A DNA stretch of 64,000 nt from Oceanospirillaceae bacterium. Lineage in GTDB: Bacteria > Pseudomonadota > Gammaproteobacteria > Pseudomonadales > Litoribrevibacteraceae. The DNA lies in assembly GCA_015665455.1 (NCBI GenBank), contig JADFAD010000001.1, positions 434,001 to 498,000 on the forward strand. The letters run 5' to 3'. The notes under the pieces were generated by a model. The model did no database searches and was not told the DNA's origin. It worked only from the letters and a program-made list of their open reading frames with translations. Positions 2,544-30,155 of this stretch are shown one piece after another; position 1 is the stretch's first letter; every line of letters starts with the position of its first letter. A program made the translations under genes and the position numbers.

Positions 2544-3395
2544 GTGGGCATGGAATCTCGTGAGTTTCCGATGACGGACGCAAACTTCACACACATTAAA
2601 AACGTTGCTTACGATCGTACGGGCATTGTGTTAGGTGATCATAAGCGTGAAATGGTTTATAGCCGCTTAGCGCGTCGTTGTCGTGCTTTGGGGGTGAATG
2701 ATTTTGATCAATACATTCACATCCTTGAATCTCAAGAAGGTGAAGAGCTGAGCCATTTTGTAAACAGTATTACGACTAATTTGACGTCATTTTTTCGTGA
2801 AAAGCATCATTTCGATTTTTTGACAGAAACGGTGTTTCCTGATGTTTTTAAGGCCAATGCAGCTACTCGAAAAGTCAGAATTTGGTCGGCGGGTTGTTCT
2901 ACCGGGGAAGAACCTTATTCCTTAGCGATTACCTTGGCTAATTTTCTTAAACTAAACAGTCACAAATACAAAGATTGGGATGTGAAAATTTTGGCCACGG
3001 ATCTGGATTCAAATGTTCTGGATAAAGGTAAGCGAGGTGCCTATCTTGTTTCAGGTGCAGATGGATTAAGTGATTCAGATCGAAAAGAATATTTTACTGA
3101 GTCAGATCAAGAAGACGGTCACCATTTGCTGGCAAAAGAAAAAATAAGAAACTTGATTACTTTTAACCGACTAAACTTATTACACAAGTGGCCAATGAAG
3201 GGAAAGTTTGATGTGATATTCTGCCGAAATGTCGTGATATATTTTGATAAAGACACTCAAAAAGTGTTGTTTGATCGTTACGCCAATCAATTAAAAGATG
3301 CCGGTTACTTGATGATTGGTCATTCTGAGAATTTACATCGGGTATCCACTCGATTCTCAGCGTTAGGTAATACACGATATAAGAAAATTAACTAA
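2544..3395 (+). CDS. cheR: Chemotaxis protein methyltransferase CheR
   Basis: SAM-dependent methyltransferase that methylates glutamates of chemoreceptors. The N-terminal helical domain contains TNLTSFFREKHHF, and the SAM-binding segment RIWSAGCSTGEEPYSLAI is intact. CRNVVIYFD and GHSENL lie further on, all in the usual CheR order. At 283 aa it has normal length. The GTG start is preceded by AAGGGGG at a spacing of 7; an ATG two codons downstream is the alternative. It is followed 9 bp later by cheD and then cheB, an adaptation operon. The receptor upstream ends in a WDEF tether that CheR could bind. Confidence 0.95.
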   Translation: MGMESREFPMTDANFTHIKNVAYDRTGIVLGDHKREMVYSRLARRCRALGVNDFDQYIHILESQEGEELSHFVNSITTNLTSFFREKHHFDFLTETVFPDVFKANAATRKVRIWSAGCSTGEEPYSLAITLANFLKLNSHKYKDWDVKILATDLDSNVLDKGKRGAYLVSGADGLSDSDRKEYFTESDQEDGHHLLAKEKIRNLITFNRLNLLHKWPMKGKFDVIFCRNVVIYFDKDTQKVLFDRYANQLKDAGYLMIGHSENLHRVSTRFSALGNTRYKKIN

Positions 3396-3404
3396 AGGGA
3401 TTTC

Positions 3405-4061
3405 ATGCTGAGCCATAAAAAGAAACCTGCACCTAAACGCGTTTCAGTGGGGTTTGAGCACGTTAAACGCTTTTGGGACCCTAAACACAGTTGCTTTGTT
3501 GCGAAAATCCTACCTGGAGAGTTTTATATTTCAGGTAAGGATGAAGTAATTTCGACTGTGTTAGGGTCGTGCATTTCTGCGTGCATTCGTGATCCCGTAT
3601 TAGGCTTGGGCGGCATGAATCATTTTATGTTGCCTCATCATGGCGGCCATTCAAATGTTTCATGGGAAGGCTCTACCATCAGCAGTGAAACACGTTACGG
3701 TAACTGGGCCATGGAGTACTTGATTAACGAATTATTGAAATTAGGGGCAGTAAGAGAGCGTTTGGAGGTGAAAGTCTTTGGTGGTGGCCAAGTGCTGGCA
3801 AATATGACCGACATTGGATCTCGTAATATTCAATTTGTGAAGGATTATCTCTATAACGAAGGCATGGAAATCGTTTCTCAGGATATGGGTGGGCAGTTAC
3901 CTAGAAAGGTTGTATATCACCCTGATACTGGTAAAGTTTTGGTTAAAAAGATTCGTAAAACATCGAACGATACGATTGTTGCTCGCGAAAAAGATTACAT
4001 GCGTCGTATCGATACCGACATTGGTGATACCAGTGCCGGTAGTATTGAGCTGTTTGACTAG
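3405..4061 (+). CDS. cheD: Chemoreceptor glutamine deamidase CheD
   Basis: Deamidates glutamines in receptor methylation helices and in some bacteria interacts with CheC/CheY. The catalytic Cys and His of the family sit in GSCISACIRDP and GGMNHFMLP, and GGGQVL is also present. At 218 aa it is a little longer than many CheD proteins because of N- and C-terminal extensions. It lies between cheR and cheB with gaps of 9 and 14 bp, so the three are probably cotranscribed. No cheC is visible in the window. Confidence 0.93.
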   Translation: MLSHKKKPAPKRVSVGFEHVKRFWDPKHSCFVAKILPGEFYISGKDEVISTVLGSCISACIRDPVLGLGGMNHFMLPHHGGHSNVSWEGSTISSETRYGNWAMEYLINELLKLGAVRERLEVKVFGGGQVLANMTDIGSRNIQFVKDYLYNEGMEIVSQDMGGQLPRKVVYHPDTGKVLVKKIRKTSNDTIVAREKDYMRRIDTDIGDTSAGSIELFD

Positions 4062-4075
4062 AGGAAAGAACTTGA

Positions 4076-5128
4076 ATGCGAAAGATTAAAGTACTCATCG
4101 TTGATGATTCGCCAACCGTTCGAAGTGTGCTCGAACAAGTACTGAGCTCTGACCCAGATATTGAAGTGGTGGGGTCTGCAGAAGACCCTCTGGTCGCACG
4201 GGATGAAATTAAACGATTGAACCCCGATGTTTTAACCTTAGATGTGGAAATGCCGAAAATGGATGGCATTTCATTTTTACGAAACCTCATGCGTTTAAGG
4301 CCCATGCCTGTTGTAATGGTTTCAACACTGACAGAGCAGGGGGCACCTGTAACATTAGAGGCCCTTGAAATTGGCGCGGTGGATTATGTTGCTAAGCCTA
4401 AATCAGCGGGTGACTTGGGATTATCAGGCTACATTGAAGAAATTTGCACGAAAGTAAAAGTGGCTGCAAAGGCCAACGTTCGTGCGATGGAACGTGAACC
4501 TACTGCTCAGAAAACAACAGCATTAACCATGCCGGAGCACATGAAGTCCCGATTAGATACAACGCGCATCATTGGAATCGGTGCTTCAACAGGCGGCACA
4601 GAGGCATTAAAAGAAGTGCTTACGAAAATGCCAGTGGGTTGCCCTCCTATTATTGTGAGTCAGCATATTCCTGCGGGGTTTAGTAAATCATTTTCTGAGC
4701 GTGTTGATGGTTCCAGTGCGATTTCCGTAAAAGAAGCGGAAGACGGTGATCGTTTACAGTCGGGGACAGCGTACATTGCGCCTGGTGATCGACATCTTGT
4801 ACTAAAGCGTTCTGGTGGTGACTTTTATATCGTGTTGGATGACGGTGAAAATGTTAATCGCCACAAACCATCGGTAGAGGTAATGTTTGATTCTTTGAGT
4901 TTGGTCAGCAGAGGTCACTGTGTTGCGGCCATGCTGACTGGCATGGGTGCTGACGGCGCTCAGGCCATGTTACGATTACTTAAAGCAGGTGGTCGGACGT
5001 TGGCCCAGAATGAAGCAACGTGCGTTGTCTGGGGAATGCCGGGCGCGGCTGTAAAGTTAGGGGCGGTGGAAAAAGAAGTGGCGTTACCTCATATGGCGCA
5101 GGCCATCTTAAAAGCGTGTATAAAGTAG
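4076..5128 (+). CDS. cheB: Chemotaxis response regulator protein-glutamate methylesterase CheB (first copy)
   Basis: Removes methyl groups from receptors, and may deamidate them, when activated by phosphorylation. The receiver domain has acidic pair D10-D11, phospho-acceptor D56 in LTLDVEMPKMDG and Lys in AKPKS. The CheB catalytic domain shows GIGASTGGTEAL (nucleophile Ser), SQHIPAGF (catalytic His) and LTGMGADGAQAM. The 350 aa are a full-length CheB. It closes the cheR-cheD-cheB group and is distinct from the second CheB at 24195, which sits with cheA; the two may serve different receptors. Confidence 0.95.
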   Translation: MRKIKVLIVDDSPTVRSVLEQVLSSDPDIEVVGSAEDPLVARDEIKRLNPDVLTLDVEMPKMDGISFLRNLMRLRPMPVVMVSTLTEQGAPVTLEALEIGAVDYVAKPKSAGDLGLSGYIEEICTKVKVAAKANVRAMEREPTAQKTTALTMPEHMKSRLDTTRIIGIGASTGGTEALKEVLTKMPVGCPPIIVSQHIPAGFSKSFSERVDGSSAISVKEAEDGDRLQSGTAYIAPGDRHLVLKRSGGDFYIVLDDGENVNRHKPSVEVMFDSLSLVSRGHCVAAMLTGMGADGAQAMLRLLKAGGRTLAQNEATCVVWGMPGAAVKLGAVEKEVALPHMAQAILKACIK

Positions 5129-5177
5129 CCAATTATTTAATAAAATCATAAATCTAGGAATTCTCTAATCAAAATGG

Positions 5178-5205
5178 TTGGATAAACAAAATTTTTGGCT
5201 ATTAT
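5178..5205 (+). promoter_or_regulatory. Candidate sigma-70 promoter for the STAS/PP2C module
   Basis: TTGGAT (5178-5183), a 16-base spacer and TATTAT (5200-5205, five of six consensus bases) lie in the 141-base gap between cheB and the STAS gene. Prediction by eye; no sigma-54 or sigma-28 site was found in this gap. Confidence 0.35.
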
Positions 5206-5269
5206 GTAGGTATTCACTCATAAAGTGAGTGAGGAATGGAATCGTATAAAATCAAAAATGAGGTTAGCT

Positions 5270-5575
5270 ATGGCAATTGTTTCTTCGCTTGATGGCAGTA
5301 CTGGTGAATTGACTATAAAAGTTAAAGGGCGTTTTGACTTTAGCGCACATCAGGAATTTCGTGATGCCTATGAGAAAGTAGATAGCGCACCGGCATTGTA
5401 TTTGGTCGACATGGGCGAAACAACGTATTTGGATAGCTCTGCGTTGGGCATGCTTTTATTATTGAGAGATCATGCGGGCGGCGACAGTGCTCGAATCAAG
5501 ATTTCAAGCTGTAACAGTGATGTTAAAAAAATTCTTACGATTTCGAATTTTGAACAACTTTTTGAAATTGATTAA
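5270..5575 (+). CDS. STAS-domain protein, anti-sigma-factor-antagonist type (HsbA-like)
   Basis: Small single-domain STAS protein of 101 aa. The family works as a phosphorylatable switch partner for PP2C/HATPase proteins or anti-sigma factors. The phosphorylatable serine motif DSSALG is at residues 55-60. The start at 5270 is chosen because GAGG precedes it by 6 bases and gives canonical STAS length; a GTG at 5225 and an ATG at 5258 are in-frame alternatives. The next gene encodes a receiver-PP2C-ATPase protein. This pairing resembles Pseudomonas HsbA/HsbR, where HsbA partners the anti-sigma factor FlgM. The domain is certain; the function is inferred from that resemblance. Confidence 0.85.
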   Translation: MAIVSSLDGSTGELTIKVKGRFDFSAHQEFRDAYEKVDSAPALYLVDMGETTYLDSSALGMLLLLRDHAGGDSARIKISSCNSDVKKILTISNFEQLFEID

Positions 5576-5612
5576 TCTGCCACTCGATTAAGCGATATGG
5601 AGATCCCTTATT

Positions 5613-7331
5613 ATGGAAGATGATGGTGGCTCCCTTAAGATTTTAATCGCTGATGACAATGAAACCGATCGCATGATATTGCATGCGATTGTGAAAAAAC
5701 AGGGTCATGCGGTCGTCACTGCAAGTGATGGGGTGGAAGCAGTAGAGCGGTTCATTGAAGAACAACCTGAATTGATTCTTCTGGATGCTCTGATGCCTAA
5801 TATGGATGGCTTTGAAGCAGCTCGGCGCATTAAGGAGCTTGCAGGCGAAGATCTTGTCCCTATTATTTTCCTTACCTCTCTAAAAGATGCTGAATCTTTA
5901 GCAAAGTGTTTAGAGGCGGGTGGCGATGACTTTCTGTCAAAGCCTTATAATCGCATTATCCTTCAGGCAAAAATCAATGCCTTCAGTCGAATGCGTAATA
6001 TGCATTTGACGATGCAAAAGCAACGCGATCAGATTGCTTTGCATAATGAACACCTTCTGCATGAGCAAGAAACCGCTAAAGCCGTTTTTGATAATGTGGC
6101 GCATTCCGGTTGCCTTGATTCCCCGAACATAAAATACCTCCTTTCACCTTTGGCGGTTTTCAATGGTGATGTTTTGTTGGCTGCTCGTAAGCCTTCTGGT
6201 GGTATGCATGTCTTACTGGGGGATTACACAGGCCACGGTTTACCTGCTGCGATCGGTGCGATGCCCATGGCAGAGATCTTTTATGCGCTGACCAGCAAAG
6301 GCTTTACGATTGAAGAGATCATCAAAGAGATCAATGCCAAACTTAAGGCCATCTTACCAACGGGCGTGTTCTGTTGCGCATGTATGGTGGATATGGAGTT
6401 TCGCGAACGTGAAATGAAAGTTTGGATTGGTGGTTTACCGACGTGTTTCTTATATAGAAGTGGCACTGGTGAACGTGTAGAGATCGCATCCAACCATTTG
6501 CCGCTTGGGGTGCTAAGTGGTGATCAATTCAAGGTGAAGATGCAGGTCTTTGAGGTCAGCGAAGGTGATCGCGTTTACATGTGGTCGGATGGCATTCATG
6601 AAGCGCGTAATGACCAAGACGTAATGTTCGGTGAGGAACGACTGATTGATGTATTTGATCGTTGTACCAGCCCTGAGTCTCTGTTTGATGACATCAATGT
6701 CGCTGTTGAGGAGTATTTGGGGGAGGCGGAACGTGATGATGACATCACCTTGGTTGAGGTTCGTATTCCGAACGAGCGGGAAATTGAAGAGCTGCCTGAA
6801 GAGACCATTGATATCTCTGATAAAGGCCCTATGGATTGGCATTTGGATTATCGTCTGAATCCTCTCAGTCTTAAGTACTTTAACCCGTTGCCTTTTGTAT
6901 TACAGTTGATTACAGAAGTGCCAGGTTTACGCCGTTGCAGTGGGCAGGTTTACACCATTTTGGCAGAGTTGTATTCAAATGCGTTGGAGCATGGCGTACT
7001 TGGGTTGGATTCTGAACTTAAAAAGAACCCTCAGGGGTTCAGTGAATATTATGATTTAAGAGCGAAACGTTTGGAAGGGCTTGATTTAGGTTTTGTTAAT
7101 TTCAAGTTAAATCATATTCCTACGGAGACCGGTGGTGCTTTGACGGTCTTGATCAGCGACAGTGGTGAAGGCTTTGATTTTCAAAGTAAGCTGGATGATG
7201 GATCGGATAAGCAATATTGTGGCCGTGGAATCCCCTTGATCTCTACACTTTGTCGTTCAGTGACTTATAAAGGGTGTGGAAACGAAGTAGAAGCGGTTTT
7301 TGAGTGGCATTACACACAAACAGGCAGCTAA
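5613..7331 (+). CDS. Response regulator with PP2C (SpoIIE) phosphatase and HATPase domains (HsbR-like)
   Basis: Three-domain signalling protein of 572 aa. A receiver domain (about 1-130) has D14-D15, phospho-acceptor D58 and SKP. A coiled linker follows. The PP2C/SpoIIE phosphatase (about 155-385) has metal-binding GDYTGHG and DDDITLV. The C-terminal GHKL ATPase/kinase-like domain has ELYSNALEHG and ISDSGEGF plus CGRGIPLI. Such proteins can both phosphorylate and dephosphorylate a STAS partner, here probably the product of the gene 37 bp upstream, in response to receiver phosphorylation. The Hpt protein 83 bp downstream could feed phosphate to D58. This layout matches HsbR of Pseudomonas; the partner is inferred. 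Confidence 0.88.
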   Translation: MEDDGGSLKILIADDNETDRMILHAIVKKQGHAVVTASDGVEAVERFIEEQPELILLDALMPNMDGFEAARRIKELAGEDLVPIIFLTSLKDAESLAKCLEAGGDDFLSKPYNRIILQAKINAFSRMRNMHLTMQKQRDQIALHNEHLLHEQETAKAVFDNVAHSGCLDSPNIKYLLSPLAVFNGDVLLAARKPSGGMHVLLGDYTGHGLPAAIGAMPMAEIFYALTSKGFTIEEIIKEINAKLKAILPTGVFCCACMVDMEFREREMKVWIGGLPTCFLYRSGTGERVEIASNHLPLGVLSGDQFKVKMQVFEVSEGDRVYMWSDGIHEARNDQDVMFGEERLIDVFDRCTSPESLFDDINVAVEEYLGEAERDDDITLVEVRIPNEREIEELPEETIDISDKGPMDWHLDYRLNPLSLKYFNPLPFVLQLITEVPGLRRCSGQVYTILAELYSNALEHGVLGLDSELKKNPQGFSEYYDLRAKRLEGLDLGFVNFKLNHIPTETGGALTVLISDSGEGFDFQSKLDDGSDKQYCGRGIPLISTLCRSVTYKGCGNEVEAVFEWHYTQTGS

Positions 7332-9745: not shown

Positions 9746-10717
9746 GTGCAAGACTTACTTTCACAAGACGAGATTGATGCGCTATTGCATGGCGTTGATG
9801 ATGGTGACGTTGACACGGATTCAGACGGTGGATCTGGTGAAGGCGTAGCTTCGTATGATATTACGAGTCAGGATCGTATTGTTCGTGGCCGGATGCCAAC
9901 GCTTGAAATGATTAATGAGCGTTTCACTCGTTACACTCGTATCAGTTTGTTTAATTTGCTGCGTCGAAGCGCTGAGGTTGTCTCAGGGGGCGTGCAAATA
10001 ATGAAGTTTGGTGAGTATGTGCATTCTCTGTACGTACCAACCAGTTTGAATTTGGTGAAGGTTCGTCCTTTGAAAGGAACGGGGCTGTTTGTTCTTGACG
10101 CCAAGTTGGTGTTTAAACTGGTGGATAACTTCTTTGGTGGCGATGGTCGACACGCCAAAATTGAAGGTCGTGAATTTACACCAACAGAAACCCGAATTGT
10201 TCAGATGGTGCTTGAACAATTATTTATCGACATGAAAGAAGCGTGGGGCTCAATTCTGGATGTGGATTTTGAGTACTTAAACTCAGAAGTTAACCCAGCA
10301 ATGGCGAACATTGTAAGCCCTGCGGAAGTGGTGGTTGTTAGTACGTTTCATATTGAACTCGATGGCGGCGGTGGTGATTTGCAGCTGACCATTCCTTATT
10401 CAATGATCGAACCACTGAGGGAGATTTTAGATGCCGGTGTTCAGTCTGACATCGATGAAGTTGACGAACGCTGGGAAAGAATTCTTCGTGAATACAGTTT
10501 GAACCTTAAGGCCAATCTTACTGGGTCTGTGTGTACTCGGCAATTGACGTTGGGTGAAATCGTGGAGTGGAAAGAAGGTGATATTATCCCTGTGGATATG
10601 CCTGAGTTTATTACCATGAGTGCTAATGGCGTTCCAACGTTTGATTGTCAGTTAGGGGCTGCAGGTGAAAAGTTAGCAGCCAAAGTCGTTAAGCCAGTTA
10701 AGAAACGCTTACGTTAA
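9746..10717 (+). CDS. fliM: Flagellar motor switch protein FliM
   Basis: C-ring protein that binds phosphorylated CheY and sets the direction of rotation. The N-terminal CheY-P-binding peptide LLSQDEIDALL is at residues 4-14. The middle CheC-like domain and the C-terminal surface-presentation domain (SpoA) that pairs with FliN follow. Length 323 aa is standard. The start is GTG, giving the characteristic MQDLLSQDEID N-terminus. Confidence 0.96.
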   Translation: MQDLLSQDEIDALLHGVDDGDVDTDSDGGSGEGVASYDITSQDRIVRGRMPTLEMINERFTRYTRISLFNLLRRSAEVVSGGVQIMKFGEYVHSLYVPTSLNLVKVRPLKGTGLFVLDAKLVFKLVDNFFGGDGRHAKIEGREFTPTETRIVQMVLEQLFIDMKEAWGSILDVDFEYLNSEVNPAMANIVSPAEVVVVSTFHIELDGGGGDLQLTIPYSMIEPLREILDAGVQSDIDEVDERWERILREYSLNLKANLTGSVCTRQLTLGEIVEWKEGDIIPVDMPEFITMSANGVPTFDCQLGAAGEKLAAKVVKPVKKRLR

Positions 10718-21881: not shown

Positions 21882-24173
21882 ATGAGTTTCGAGGCCGATG
21901 AAGAAATCCTCCAGGATTTCCTTGTAGAGTCAGGGGAAATATTGGAGCTGCTTCAAGAGCAGTTAGTTGAGTTAGAGCAAAAACCAGATGACATGGATTT
22001 GTTAAATGCCATCTTCCGTGGCTTTCATACGGTCAAAGGTGGTGCTGGTTTCCTGCAGTTAACTAACTTAGTTGAATGTTGTCATATTGCAGAAAATGTA
22101 TTTGATATGCTCCGTAATGGACAAAAGTCTGTAACTTCCGAATTAATGGATGTGATTTTACAGACTTTGGATGCAGTAAACGTCATGTTTGATGCAGTCC
22201 GTAATGGTGAAGAGATGACATCAGCAGAGCCCCAGCTGCTTGCCGACCTCGAAGCGTTAGCTGTTCCTGATGGTGCTGAACCAGCACCAGAAGCTGTTGA
22301 AGAGCCTGCTGCGGTTGACCCCGTTGCCGATCAAGCGGATGCAGAGTTTGATCAAATGGTTGCTTCAGCGGATGCTGTATCAGCGGCAGATGATGATTTA
22401 TTTGAAATTGATAGCCCAGCAGCAGCTTCAGGCAGTGGCGGTGATGAAATCACCGAAGAAGAGTTTGAAGCGCTTCTAAATGAATTACATGGCGAGGGTG
22501 GATCACCAACAAAGGCTGATCCCCCTGCTCCGGTTGAAAAAGCCCCTGCTAATGCTGCTCCTCAAAGTGGTGAGATCTCTGAAGATGAGTTTGATGCTCT
22601 TTTGGATCAACTTCATGGTGCAGGGAAAGGCCCTAGCGCTGACAAACCCGTTGAACCTTCTAAAGCGGAAACTCCAGCACCGAAACCCGCAGGTGGAAGT
22701 GGAGAACTCATTTCTGATGATGAGTTTGAAAATCTTTTGGATGAGCTTCATGGTGCAGGTAAAGGACCAACAGTAACGTCCTATGATGCTGCGCCTGTCG
22801 CGGAGACTCCGACGCCTCCTCCTGCAGCGACCCCAGCACCTTCTGCAAAACCGGCACCAGCAGCTAAGCCTGCGCCTGCTGCCAAACCTGCAGCAGCGGC
22901 AAAACCAGCAGTTAAGCCAAAAGCGCCTGCTGCAGCAAAACCTGCTGCGGCGAAACCTAAACCACAAGCTAAGGACAATGCTGCGCCTGCAGAAACGACC
23001 GTTCGTGTAGATACTAAGCGATTAGATGATATTATGAATATGGTGGGCGAACTTGTATTGGTTCGTAATCGTTTAGTTCGTCTGGGGATGGCAAGTTCTG
23101 ATGAAGATGTTTCTAAAGCGGTTTCAAACTTAGATGTTGTGACTGCAGACCTTCAAACGTCAGTAATGAAAACCCGAATGCAGCCTATTAAGAAAGTATT
23201 TGGGCGCTTCCCTCGAGTTGTTCGTGATTTGGCGAGAACGTTAAAGAAAGAAGTTAATCTAGAGCTGGTGGGTGAAGAAACTGACTTAGATAAGAACTTG
23301 GTAGAAGCACTTGCAGATCCGCTTGTTCACTTGGTTCGAAATGCGGTGGATCATGGTGTAGAAACACCGGAAGTGCGTGAAGGTAATAAAAAGCCACGAA
23401 CAGGTAAAGTTATTCTTTCTGCTGAGCAGGAAGGCGACCACATACTTCTTAGTATTCAGGATGATGGTGGTGGTATGAATCCTGATGTGTTGCGTCAGAA
23501 AGCTGTTGAGAAGGGCGTTTATGAACAGGATGCTGCGGATCGATTAAGTGATAAAGAAGCATTTAATTTGATTTTCCATCCTGGCTTTTCGACGAAAGAA
23601 GAAATATCTGATGTGTCGGGTCGCGGTGTTGGCATGGACGTTGTGAAAACTAAGATTTCACAGCTGAACGGCACCATTGATGTTGATTCTGAAATAAATA
23701 AAGGTACGCGGATTTCTATTAAGGTACCTTTGACGCTGGCTATTATGCCAACATTAATGGTTATGCTTGAGAACCAAGCCTTTGCTTTCCCGTTGGTAAG
23801 TGTGAATGAAATCTTCCATTTAGACATTACTCAGACTAATGTTGTTGATGGTCAGGAAGTCATTGTTGTACGGGAAAAGGTTTATCCTTTGTTTCATTTG
23901 AAGCGTTGGTTGGTTAATAGAAACGCGAAGAATGATGAAGACAGTACAGCCCATGTTGTGATCGTTTCTGTTGGTACTCAGCGAGTTGGTTTTGTTGTTG
24001 ATCAACTTATTGGACAGGAAGAAGTCGTCATCAAACCGCTTGGTAAAATGCTGCATGGTACGCCAGGAATGTCAGGTGCTACTATTACAGGTGATGGTCG
24101 TATTGCACTGATATTAGATGTGCCTAGTTTACTTAATAACTACGCCTCTAAGGCCATGAATAATTATAAATAA
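21882..24173 (+). CDS. cheA: Chemotaxis histidine kinase CheA
   Basis: Receptor-coupled kinase that phosphorylates CheY and CheB. The P1 Hpt domain has H49 in FRGFHTVKGGAGFLQ. A long linker replaces a recognisable P2 and carries three copies of a 20-residue motif (ISEDEFDALLDQLHGAGKGP type) near residues 189, 231 and 276. An Ala/Pro/Lys-rich stretch (about 300-370) follows. The dimerisation, ATPase (HLVRNAVDHG, DDGGGMN, GRGVGMDVV) and CheW-like regulatory domains are intact. 763 aa. In Vibrio cholerae a CheA linker region (LID) binds ParP, and parP is present here, so the repeats may do this; that is inference. Confidence 0.96.
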   Translation: MSFEADEEILQDFLVESGEILELLQEQLVELEQKPDDMDLLNAIFRGFHTVKGGAGFLQLTNLVECCHIAENVFDMLRNGQKSVTSELMDVILQTLDAVNVMFDAVRNGEEMTSAEPQLLADLEALAVPDGAEPAPEAVEEPAAVDPVADQADAEFDQMVASADAVSAADDDLFEIDSPAAASGSGGDEITEEEFEALLNELHGEGGSPTKADPPAPVEKAPANAAPQSGEISEDEFDALLDQLHGAGKGPSADKPVEPSKAETPAPKPAGGSGELISDDEFENLLDELHGAGKGPTVTSYDAAPVAETPTPPPAATPAPSAKPAPAAKPAPAAKPAAAAKPAVKPKAPAAAKPAAAKPKPQAKDNAAPAETTVRVDTKRLDDIMNMVGELVLVRNRLVRLGMASSDEDVSKAVSNLDVVTADLQTSVMKTRMQPIKKVFGRFPRVVRDLARTLKKEVNLELVGEETDLDKNLVEALADPLVHLVRNAVDHGVETPEVREGNKKPRTGKVILSAEQEGDHILLSIQDDGGGMNPDVLRQKAVEKGVYEQDAADRLSDKEAFNLIFHPGFSTKEEISDVSGRGVGMDVVKTKISQLNGTIDVDSEINKGTRISIKVPLTLAIMPTLMVMLENQAFAFPLVSVNEIFHLDITQTNVVDGQEVIVVREKVYPLFHLKRWLVNRNAKNDEDSTAHVVIVSVGTQRVGFVVDQLIGQEEVVIKPLGKMLHGTPGMSGATITGDGRIALILDVPSLLNNYASKAMNNYK

Positions 24174-26962: not shown

Positions 26963-27004
26963 TTTCACTCTTTAAATCTGGATTTTTAATGAGTGGAGTC
27001 TGCA

Positions 27005-27781
27005 ATGCGAGTTTGGGCTGTTGCAAATCAGAAGGGCGGGGTTGGGAAGACCACTACCGCTGTCAGCTTGGCCGGTTTATTGGCAGAGCAAGGTAAACGA
27101 GTTGTGCTTGTTGACCTTGATCCTCATGGTTCAATGACAAGTTACTTTGGTTATGATCCTGATGTTCTAGAACATTCGTGCTTTGATTTGTTTCAAGCTT
27201 CCAGTGCGATCCCTCCTGAACTTCCGAGTCAGTTGTTGTTGGACACCAGTCACGACCATATCAACTTATTACCTTCTTCAACGGCTTTAGCAACGCTTGA
27301 ACGTACTATGGTTGGTAAAGACGGTATGGGGTTAGTCGTTTCTCGGTCTTTAGCGTCGCTTTGGGATGATTTTGATTATGCTATTATCGACAGTCCTCCG
27401 ATTTTGGGCGTGTTGATGATTAATGCGCTTGCTGCTTGTTCACGATTAATGATTCCTGTGCAATGTGAGTTCTTGGCGCTTAAAGGCTTAGAGAGAATGG
27501 TACACACGTTGAATATGGTTACTAAGTCTCGCCCTCAGCCTCTTCCTTATCATATTGTGCCGACCATGTTTGACCGAAGAACGAATGCATCTTTGCAAAG
27601 TGTCAAAGAGATGCGAGAGAAGTACCCTGAGAATATTTGGGAATATACCATTCCTGTTGATACTCAGTTTCGCGATGCATCTAAGGCGGGCGTTATTCCG
27701 AGTAGCTTTGGCCCTGATGGTCGAGGTGTTCGTGGTTATGCCAAATTACTTAAACAGTTGCTTGCTGCTGAAGCAAGCTAA
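27005..27781 (+). CDS. parC: ParA-family ATPase of the chemotaxis array (ParC)
   Basis: ParA-like ATPase which, in Vibrio and Pseudomonas, recruits chemotaxis arrays to the pole. The deviant Walker A NQKGGVGKTTTAVSLAGLL is at the N-terminus, with LVDLDPHGSMTSYFGY and IIDSPPILGVLMINAL following. 258 aa. The ATG at 27005 is preferred (GGAG 6 bases upstream) over a GTG at 26993. Here it stands after motD and is separated from parP by one unrecognised gene. Confidence 0.9.
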   Translation: MRVWAVANQKGGVGKTTTAVSLAGLLAEQGKRVVLVDLDPHGSMTSYFGYDPDVLEHSCFDLFQASSAIPPELPSQLLLDTSHDHINLLPSSTALATLERTMVGKDGMGLVVSRSLASLWDDFDYAIIDSPPILGVLMINALAACSRLMIPVQCEFLALKGLERMVHTLNMVTKSRPQPLPYHIVPTMFDRRTNASLQSVKEMREKYPENIWEYTIPVDTQFRDASKAGVIPSSFGPDGRGVRGYAKLLKQLLAAEAS

Positions 27782-27804: not shown

Positions 27805-28179
27805 ATGGCGCCGACACAACAGGATGTAGTTGCTGACTATTTGAGCTCGATGTTTGGTGAAAACCTACCAGTAGAAGAAAAATCGCTGGAAGAATCACAA
27901 AACGGGGCTGAGGTGCACGTTGACGTAGAGGAGCTTAAGGACACAGAGTTAAGCCATCTTGAAGGTGTTGCAGAAAGCTTAAAAACAATGGGTTGTCAGG
28001 TTGATGATGACAAACAATTGATTTGCCTGTTTAACTTAGCTTTGACGCCTTCAAAAGGTCTTAGTTCAGGAGAAAAGGCAACGTTTTTAATGGACTTATT
28101 TACTTTGTTACAAAAAGTGCCTGAATCAAGGTTGAGAAGCATGATGGAAACTCAATTTGAACAAGTTTCTCGTTTATAA
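27805..28179 (+). CDS. Unrecognised acidic protein between parC and parP
   Basis: 124-aa soluble, acidic, probably helical protein with no membrane segment or motif I recognise. The first 50 residues are rich in Glu/Asp and look unstructured; the rest (SLKTMGCQVDDDKQLICLF to the end) looks folded. It lies 23 bp after parC and 39 bp before parP, on the same strand and under the same presumed promoter. A role in array positioning is suggested only by position. In the Pseudomonas order I know, parC and parP are direct neighbours. Confidence 0.75.
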   Translation: MAPTQQDVVADYLSSMFGENLPVEEKSLEESQNGAEVHVDVEELKDTELSHLEGVAESLKTMGCQVDDDKQLICLFNLALTPSKGLSSGEKATFLMDLFTLLQKVPESRLRSMMETQFEQVSRL

Positions 28180-28218: not shown

Positions 28219-29220
28219 ATGAATGACGATCAGAAGTCATCAAAAACCAAATTAAAGACCGCACCAGTCAAACCAATGGCTGCTCTACAAGGCTATCTGG
28301 ATGATATGTTGGCAGTTGCAACGGAAGCGGTCACTGAAACTGAAGTGATTTCAGAACCTTACCAGACGCCTGAAGCACCAGCACCTGAAATTACGGCGTC
28401 TGAACCCATTGAACCCGTTCAAGTTAAACCAGAACATTCATCAAAAACTCAAGTTGTCTCTCGTGTTGCTGAAAAGAGTGTTGAGGTAACAGAGACGTCC
28501 TTCCGTGAAAAGGTGATTACAGAATCGCCAGTGATCGCGATCCCTGATGTTGTTGAACCAGAGATAGAAACTACTGAAGTCATTGCCCCTCAGGTTATAG
28601 CGCCCAAAGTTGAAGCTCCTAAAATCGAAGTTCCTAAAGTTGAAGTTCCGCCTACTCCTGAAGTGATTGTAGAAAAGACGACAATTGAAGCACCGATAGA
28701 GCTTGCTCAAGCAGTAGAGGTTCTTGAGCCTTTAAAGGTCAAAAAATCGGCTTACCCTGATTGGGCATCGGCGGGTTTTGAATGCTTACTGTTTTATGTG
28801 GGTGGAATTAAACTTGCCGTTCCTTTAGTGCTCCTCGGCGGTATTTACCGCATTGATAAAGATTTAACGCCTCTTTTTGGTCAACCCGATTGGTTTTTGG
28901 GTCTTTATCCTCGAAACACGATGGATGGCCAACAAAACTTACGTGTTGTGCATACCAGTCGTTGGGTTATGCCTGAAAAGAAAACTCCTGATTTGGACCC
29001 TATAAATCATTATGTTATTTCTTTAGGAGACAGTGAGTGGGGGTTGCTCAGTCATCAGCTGTCTGATTCTATTCGGTTAATGCCTGATCAAGTAAAGTGG
29101 CGGACTGAAACGAGTAAAAGGCCTTGGTTAGCAGGTACGGTCATTGATCATATGTGTGCTATTTTAGATGTGACCAGCATGGTGACGTTACTGAACCAAA
29201 AGTCTAAACGAATTAATTAA
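28219..29220 (+). CDS. parP: CheW-like array protein ParP
   Basis: Couples ParC to the chemosensory array. The N-terminal two-thirds (residues 1-180) is a low-complexity Pro/Glu/Val/Ala linker with repeated P-K-V-E-type units (APKVEAPKIEVPKVEVPP). The C-terminal part (about 185-330) is a CheW-like (AIF) domain: FECLLFYVGGIKLAVPLVLLGG, then WFLGLYPR and MCAILDVTSMVTLL. 333 aa. It fits the Vibrio/Pseudomonas ParP arrangement. Upstream parC and the CheA linker repeats are likely partners. Confidence 0.85.
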   Translation: MNDDQKSSKTKLKTAPVKPMAALQGYLDDMLAVATEAVTETEVISEPYQTPEAPAPEITASEPIEPVQVKPEHSSKTQVVSRVAEKSVEVTETSFREKVITESPVIAIPDVVEPEIETTEVIAPQVIAPKVEAPKIEVPKVEVPPTPEVIVEKTTIEAPIELAQAVEVLEPLKVKKSAYPDWASAGFECLLFYVGGIKLAVPLVLLGGIYRIDKDLTPLFGQPDWFLGLYPRNTMDGQQNLRVVHTSRWVMPEKKTPDLDPINHYVISLGDSEWGLLSHQLSDSIRLMPDQVKWRTETSKRPWLAGTVIDHMCAILDVTSMVTLLNQKSKRIN

Positions 29221-29442: not shown

Positions 29443-29922
29443 ATGGTAGCGCAATCATCTCAGGCTGGTGAAGATCCTATTCTTCAATGGGTTACATTTC
29501 GATTAGATGATGAAACCTATGGAATAAACGTAATGCAGGTTCGTGAAGTATTACGTTACACGGAAATTGCACCAGTCCCGGGGGCTCCTCCTTATGTTTT
29601 GGGGATCATTAATTTACGCGGCAGTGTCGTAACGGTTATTGATACTCGTACAAGGTTTGGATTAACTTCAACTGACACAACGGATAATACTCGTATCGTG
29701 ATCATTGAAGTAGAGAACCAAGTTGTTGGTATTCTTGTTGATGCGGTTGCAGAGGTTGTATATCTGCGCCAATCAGAGATTGAAACGGCTCCTAATGTTG
29801 GCACTGAAGAAAGTGCTAAATTCATTCAAGGGGTGTGTCATAAGAATGATGAATTATTAATTCTTGTGGATCTCGAGAAACTGATGACTGAAGAAGAGTG
29901 GGCGGAAATGGCCTCTCTTTAA
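29443..29922 (+). CDS. cheW: Chemotaxis coupling protein CheW
   Basis: Adaptor between receptors and CheA. A single CheW domain is seen: ILQWVTFRLDDETYGINVMQVREVL, PGAPPYVLGIINLRGSVVTVIDTR and the C-terminal VCHKNDELLILVDLEKLM. 159 aa, normal. GAGGT precedes the ATG. It begins its own transcription unit after a 222-base gap holding two candidate promoters. Confidence 0.96.
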   Translation: MVAQSSQAGEDPILQWVTFRLDDETYGINVMQVREVLRYTEIAPVPGAPPYVLGIINLRGSVVTVIDTRTRFGLTSTDTTDNTRIVIIEVENQVVGILVDAVAEVVYLRQSEIETAPNVGTEESAKFIQGVCHKNDELLILVDLEKLMTEEEWAEMASL

Positions 29923-29942
29923 AAAAACATCGGGTGAGTAAC

Positions 29943-30155
29943 ATGGTGCCTCCAACCATAGGGAAAGTGGATGTATTGACCCCTGTACCAAGGGTGAGCA
30001 AAATCCGCAAGTACCAAGAAGACGAAGATAAGGATGATACTGAAAGGGAACAGCAGGATTCTCCAAGCGAGGATGTTGTCCCCGAGCCTGAAGATCTCAA
30101 TAGAGAGCAATCAGGCGATGATGATCAGTATCCCCATATTGATGATTATGTATAA
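29943..30155 (+). CDS. Small acidic protein downstream of cheW
   Basis: 70-aa protein beginning MVPPTIGKVDVLTPVPRVSK and then almost entirely charged (Glu/Asp/Lys/Gln), probably disordered. The start at 29943 follows GGGTGAG at good spacing; the longer reading from 29898 overlaps cheW and is less likely. It sits 20 bp after cheW and 12 bp before a DUF2802 gene. Pseudomonas also has an unnamed gene just after cheW. No function can be given. Confidence 0.7.
   Translation: MVPPTIGKVDVLTPVPRVSKIRKYQEDEDKDDTEREQQDSPSEDVVPEPEDLNREQSGDDDQYPHIDDYV

Follow-up and report, generated by a model that had tools for sequence, protein, structure and literature searches.

The window, the whole 64,000-nt stretch of Oceanospirillaceae bacterium DNA that was analyzed, contains a 124-amino acid open reading frame, here called X, at 27805..28179 (+). 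It lies between a parC-like gene for a ParA/MinD ATPase (26993..27781, +; Pfam AAA_31, E 7.1e-44) and a parP-like gene for a CheW-domain protein (28219..29220, +; Pfam CheW, E 3.7e-10). Read from its ATG, X begins 23 nt after the parC stop at 27781 and ends 39 nt before the parP start at 28219; the true start of parC is perhaps the ATG at 27005. The product is acidic, with 8 D and 15 E against 7 K and 3 R and a pI of 4.36. The original prediction had described a tightly packed acidic protein of no recognized family between a ParA-like ATPase and a CheW-like adaptor, and each part of that description was confirmed. X had no Pfam match past the cutoff (best E 0.14), no NCBIfam match, and no PDB match (best E 1.7), and the 17 homologs aligned with it did not belong to a known family either, apart from stray matches. 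No protein like X is named in the titles and abstract openings of the literature searched, which was mostly non-subscription. A cheW gene (29443..29922, +; Pfam CheW, E 5.2e-43) and a DUF2802 gene are also in the neighborhood, along with genes that we take, on reading them, to be cheA, cheB, and two motor-type genes.

Two further features of this neighborhood were noted in passing. A small ORF at 29898-30155 (+), between cheW and the DUF2802 gene, ends in HIDDYV and resembles the small ORFs that follow cheW in other loci (HIDEYV in L017 and L019, VDDYA in L037); it is possibly a further unannotated conserved small gene. The CheA linker carries three I(S/T)xxEFxxLLxxLHG repeats, at 22449, 22575, and 22710 of the window, and a motif like them is found in 77 of 80 Pseudomonas loci. 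The repeats resemble the N-terminus of the ORF at 9746 (LLSQDEIDALLHG), which is presumably FliM, with its CheY-binding peptide at that end.

A search with the single X sequence in 56 relatives gave one clear homolog, in genome G001, where it occupies the same position; weak matches in ten genomes other than G000 and G001 were excluded on match length and frame only. Among the 23 relatives with a ParP match, inspection of the parC-parP gap turned up a third X, in G038. Applied to 390 genomes of the order, a three-row profile added G296. Its weak matches in G309 and G337 had neither parC nor parP alongside, and the same was true of a second weak match in the window's own genome (C8:147718, E 0.0165). 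The next profile (A2) matched 16 of the 44 genomes of family f38, each time with parC upstream and ParP downstream, the latter represented in G103 only by its N-terminus before the contig ends.

The resulting 18-row profile (A3) was used to search 788 genomes. In f38, it matched 37 of 44 genomes, comprising 36 X proteins and one ParP N-terminus (G218), and in f6 it matched seven of 22, with four X in the gap and three elsewhere. The 27 matches among the 390 genomes of the order were 20 X, four ParP frames (G218, G248, G044, and G090), a frame in G144 that begins right behind parC and in which the AIF part was not seen, and two without placement (G013 and G173). At the level of the class, eight of 369 genomes matched: the window's own, one with a ParP N-terminus (L171), and six with weak matches that had no parC or parP alongside. 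One X, in G224, was missed by A3 and recovered by reading the gap. In total, 46 genomes carry X (two in f1, 36 in f38, and eight in f6), all from three families of one order.

Membership was also examined with a profile made of the 16 f38 rows of A3, with f1 and f6 left out, against 4752 ORFs drawn from 80 Pseudomonas loci, nine loci with X or an orphan, and the window itself. The top ten matches were exactly the ten X proteins of f1 and f6, from the window X (E 2.2e-5) to the weakest, in G224 (E 7.8e-4), and the eleventh had an E-value of 0.24. Family X is real, and the window ORF is a member of it. The ORF is also a real gene and no chance frame, because homologs occupy the same parC-parP gap in 42 other genomes.

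In 43 of the 46 genomes (42 with a complete gap, plus G103), X lies in the parC-parP gap directly after parC, the opposite of the mostly external distribution that the original prediction had named as counting against it. All 46 also carry ParP. Of the 44 f38 genomes, 41 carry ParP and 36 carry X, and the three genomes that lack ParP (G396, G402, and G403) lack X too. Across the order sample, ParP was found in 157 of 390 genomes, including all 20 X genomes found with A3 as well as G224 and G371; these co-occurrence counts come from related genomes and are therefore given without a probability. X is dispensable, since it was not found in five of the 41 ParP-bearing f38 genomes (G218, G238, G404, G408, and G411) or in 14 of the 22 f6 genomes.

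The presence of X is visible in the spacing of the locus. From the parC stop to the ParP motif described below, the distance is 300-696 nt in the 42 X genomes with a complete gap and 22-198 nt in 72 others. The comparison set held 73 genomes (five from f38, 12 from f6, including three with an X elsewhere, and 56 from 19 other families), the remaining one being L279, in which no motif was read. Allowing starts up to 45 nt from the parC stop, the longest X frame opens upstream of that stop in 27 of 42 cases, although the true starts may differ. The adjacency of parC and parP that the original prediction stated for Pseudomonas is borne out, with parP downstream of parC in 79 of 80 loci and the record of the 80th ending right after parC. 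The median distance to the ParP motif in those 79 loci is 135 nt, and no X was found in their gaps or in those of the 19 other families. The few long Pseudomonas gaps contain frames that are short or repeat-like and that lack the motif. Three such gaps measure 1081 nt (L105), 342 nt (L048), and 318 nt (L086), and the open frame in them consists of repeats of the form VGASLLAMVVNDNAGN.

X had been described as inserted between the two genes, which holds relative to Pseudomonas only. X is clustered in f38 and f6 on a 78-row ParC tree, and its distribution there requires at least 12 changes. This tree is compatible with gain and loss alike, and its placement of f1 is uncertain.

The three X genes outside the gap (orphans) are in G048, G110, and G354, where the parC-parP gaps measure 145, 149, and 198 nt and contain no X. 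Each orphan is near a divergent gene with an MCP signaling domain (Pfam E 5.5e-28 to 3.4e-27). This gene adjoins X directly in G048 and G110, and in G354 two genes lie between, one for a 214-aa protein and one for an ODP-family protein (E 4.5e-73). Because G048 and G110 share one genus, the linkage counts as two cases, not three. The G354 arrangement, with orphan X, ODP-family gene, and divergent MCP gene at 2617-4280 (-) and 4610-5806 (+) of locus L212, is possibly a small sensory locus.

The strongest clue to function lies at the N-terminus. In the sampled lineages, ParP carries variants of (A/V)LxxYLDxLL near its N-terminus; in the window ParP, this motif (PMAALQGYLDDMLAVATEA) is at 28273..28329 (+). 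The window X has VVADYLSSMFG within residues 7-20 (DVVADYLSSMFGEN; 27823..27864, +), and other X proteins have similar motifs. We built a profile (A4) from 20 ParP N-termini from outside f1, f6, and f38 and searched the whole genome that contains the window (4.85 Mb) in six frames. X ranked first (E 0.0088) and the genome's own ParP second (E 0.0097). The next five matches had E-values of 0.41 to 2.1; two were internal pieces of long proteins, two could not be assigned, and one came from a frame of 31 aa. A4 has a mild bias, as rows L165 and L171 come from loci that the X profile had matched and the G044 row was itself an X-profile match.

The likeness also appears in the other direction. With a profile of the f38 X N-termini (16 rows, 4752 ORFs), seven X proteins took ranks 1-7 (E 0.0023-0.68; window X, 0.29), and the remaining matches listed, at ranks 8-31, were all ParP frames (E 1-4.3). 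Three of the ten X (L156, L160, and L286) were absent among the best 31 matches. The full X profile additionally matches ParP N-termini in four genomes without X, as well as the ParP of G258 itself.

The E-values of so short a motif are modest. X might accordingly act in chemotaxis or motility independently of ParC, its likeness to ParP having arisen by chance among short amphipathic helices. Scores from a motif matrix bear on this on both sides. The ORF at 9746 reaches 9.4 on the same matrix with its N-terminus, as such chance likeness would allow. Among 2560 ORFs of at least 100 aa, however, X (19.8) is the best non-ParP protein and the next non-ParP ORF scores 14.8; this comparison repeats, with ParP marked, a percentile test whose control set still contained a few ParP, so that its empirical p floor (0.0024) is an overestimate. 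In that test, all 44 X proteins examined exceeded the 99th percentile of control ORFs, 41 of them in-gap members chosen partly by a loose motif pattern and three of them orphans, every one of which keeps the motif. Together with the A4 search, in which X stands above every other frame of its genome and level with ParP, these scores lead us to consider such a ParC-independent role, with its chance resemblance, distinctly improbable.

With ParC distance removed, the X motif and the motif of the partner ParP did not co-vary (r -0.01, p 0.59), and the co-variation of the X C-terminus with the ParP AIF domain was not convincing (r 0.12, p 0.05). We also considered, and rejected, the idea that X lacks an activating K/R stretch that ParP possesses. 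The net charge before the motif fits this in the window pair (-2 in X and +4 in ParP), but the means over 41 pairs are -0.46 for X and -0.49 for the ParP of the same genomes.

The rest of X (27895..28176, +) comprises a linker and a C-terminal domain with a conserved stretch around LLxxLPxSRL. A C-terminal profile of f38 rows alone placed the ten X proteins first among the 4752 ORFs, as the sole matches below E 1 (next, 1.3), with the window X the weakest of the ten (E 0.0018). AlphaFold2 run on the single X sequence models this part as helical, at low confidence (mean pLDDT 47.9). No CheW (AIF) match was obtained in any of 18 X members at E-values up to 1, compared with 3.7e-10 for the window ParP. 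Amino acid change in X is several times faster than in ParC or in the AIF domain of ParP. Of 18 close pairs, 13 gave dN/dS values of 0.02-0.16, which are rough because dS exceeds 1 in many of them; synonymous sites were saturated in the other five, including the pair of the window and G001. By these estimates, close X pairs show purifying selection.

These properties bear on whether X could have arisen as a tandem copy of parP that decayed but retained its front end. The shared gene place and front-end motif would fit such an origin, and partial duplication is a plausible source of the motif itself. A decaying copy, however, agrees poorly with a non-CheW-like C-terminal domain that all three families conserve, with selection of the kind just described, and with X copies that persist away from parP; we regard it as very improbable.

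What the shared motif might do is suggested by work on Vibrio. In the parts of that study available, the N-terminal domain of ParP binds ParC and mediates ParP dimerization, and the C-terminal AIF domain enters the chemotaxis array; when AIF was replaced by CheA P5, polar clusters were restored in 65% of cells (PMC5706961). As profiles match in both directions and the Vibrio ParP N-terminus is described as the ParC-binding part, X looks like ParP's docking peptide placed on another domain. We infer ParC binding by the X motif by analogy with Vibrio ParP, the motif itself having been defined on the lineages sampled here.

The reading that we favor, with somewhat better than even confidence and from sequence comparison, is that ParC, the positioning ATPase, has X as a second partner protein. 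Counting against it are the shortness of the motif with its modest E-values, the missing co-variation with the ParP motif, the lack of positive charge at the N-terminus, and the dispensability of X. The main rival is that X docks on ParP, forming mixed dimers through the N-terminal motif and capping or changing core units. The reported dimerization of ParP through its N-terminus supports this, a common motif fits it too, and ParP accompanies X in 46 of 46 genomes. The sequence evidence gathered here agrees with both readings alike. ParC binding is the better documented role of the ParP N-terminus in the available text (PMC5706961), and we consider docking on ParP unlikely.

If X is a second ParC partner, its first ~20 residues would be the same short, probably helical docking peptide as the ParP N-terminus, tied by an acidic linker to a separate small C-terminal domain. 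Made from adjacent genes in one apparent operon, X and ParP would dock on the same ParC surface, where X may compete with ParP or sit beside it. X would then either tune the number of arrays that ParC holds at the pole, or its C-terminal domain would tie a receptor or other polar protein to ParC. In general terms, one ParA-type ATPase would have two dedicated partners that use one docking peptide. ParP would bring the array, and X would bring or release a second cargo, such as a particular receptor, or limit ParP on ParC as a competitor set by dosage. We offer this fuller scheme tentatively, and hold it at clearly less than even confidence.

The proposed plan resembles that of ParP, which shares with X the N-terminal YLxx(L/M)(L/F) motif, a linker, a separate C-terminal domain, and a gene at the parC locus. 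X differs in lacking the CheW-like AIF domain, in being much shorter, in having an acidic linker where that of ParP is long and proline-rich, and in being confined to three families of the order. Partners of ParA/MinD ATPases more broadly, such as ParB, MinE, and McdB, are described in passages of a second source as contacting the ATPase through an N-terminal stretch and devoting the remainder to cargo (PMC10241942). X would share this plan, with both functions predicted, and its gene likewise stands beside that of the ATPase (43 of 46). Unlike those partners, it lacks the positive charge described as typical of N-termini of this kind, and it would be the second partner of one ATPase with one common docking motif. 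Positioning by this class is usually described as one ATPase with one cargo adaptor (PMC10241942).

Across three families, X is a genuine and conserved accessory component of the ParC-ParP system, as yet without a name, for which a specific docking prediction can be made. The suggestion of a new array-positioning component in the original prediction is supported in part, by the 43 genes in the gap and the three others near an MCP gene in ParP-bearing genomes. The ParP-type motif was absent from that prediction; the mechanism proposed here comes from it, because it is the N-terminus of X that matches that of ParP. If the proposal is true, a second protein that carries the same docking peptide on another domain can share one polar ATPase or compete for it. 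It would also mark YLxx(L/M)(L/F) as the likely docking peptide of ParP itself, at residue level, and the ParC-ParP contact would therefore be testable by small mutations.
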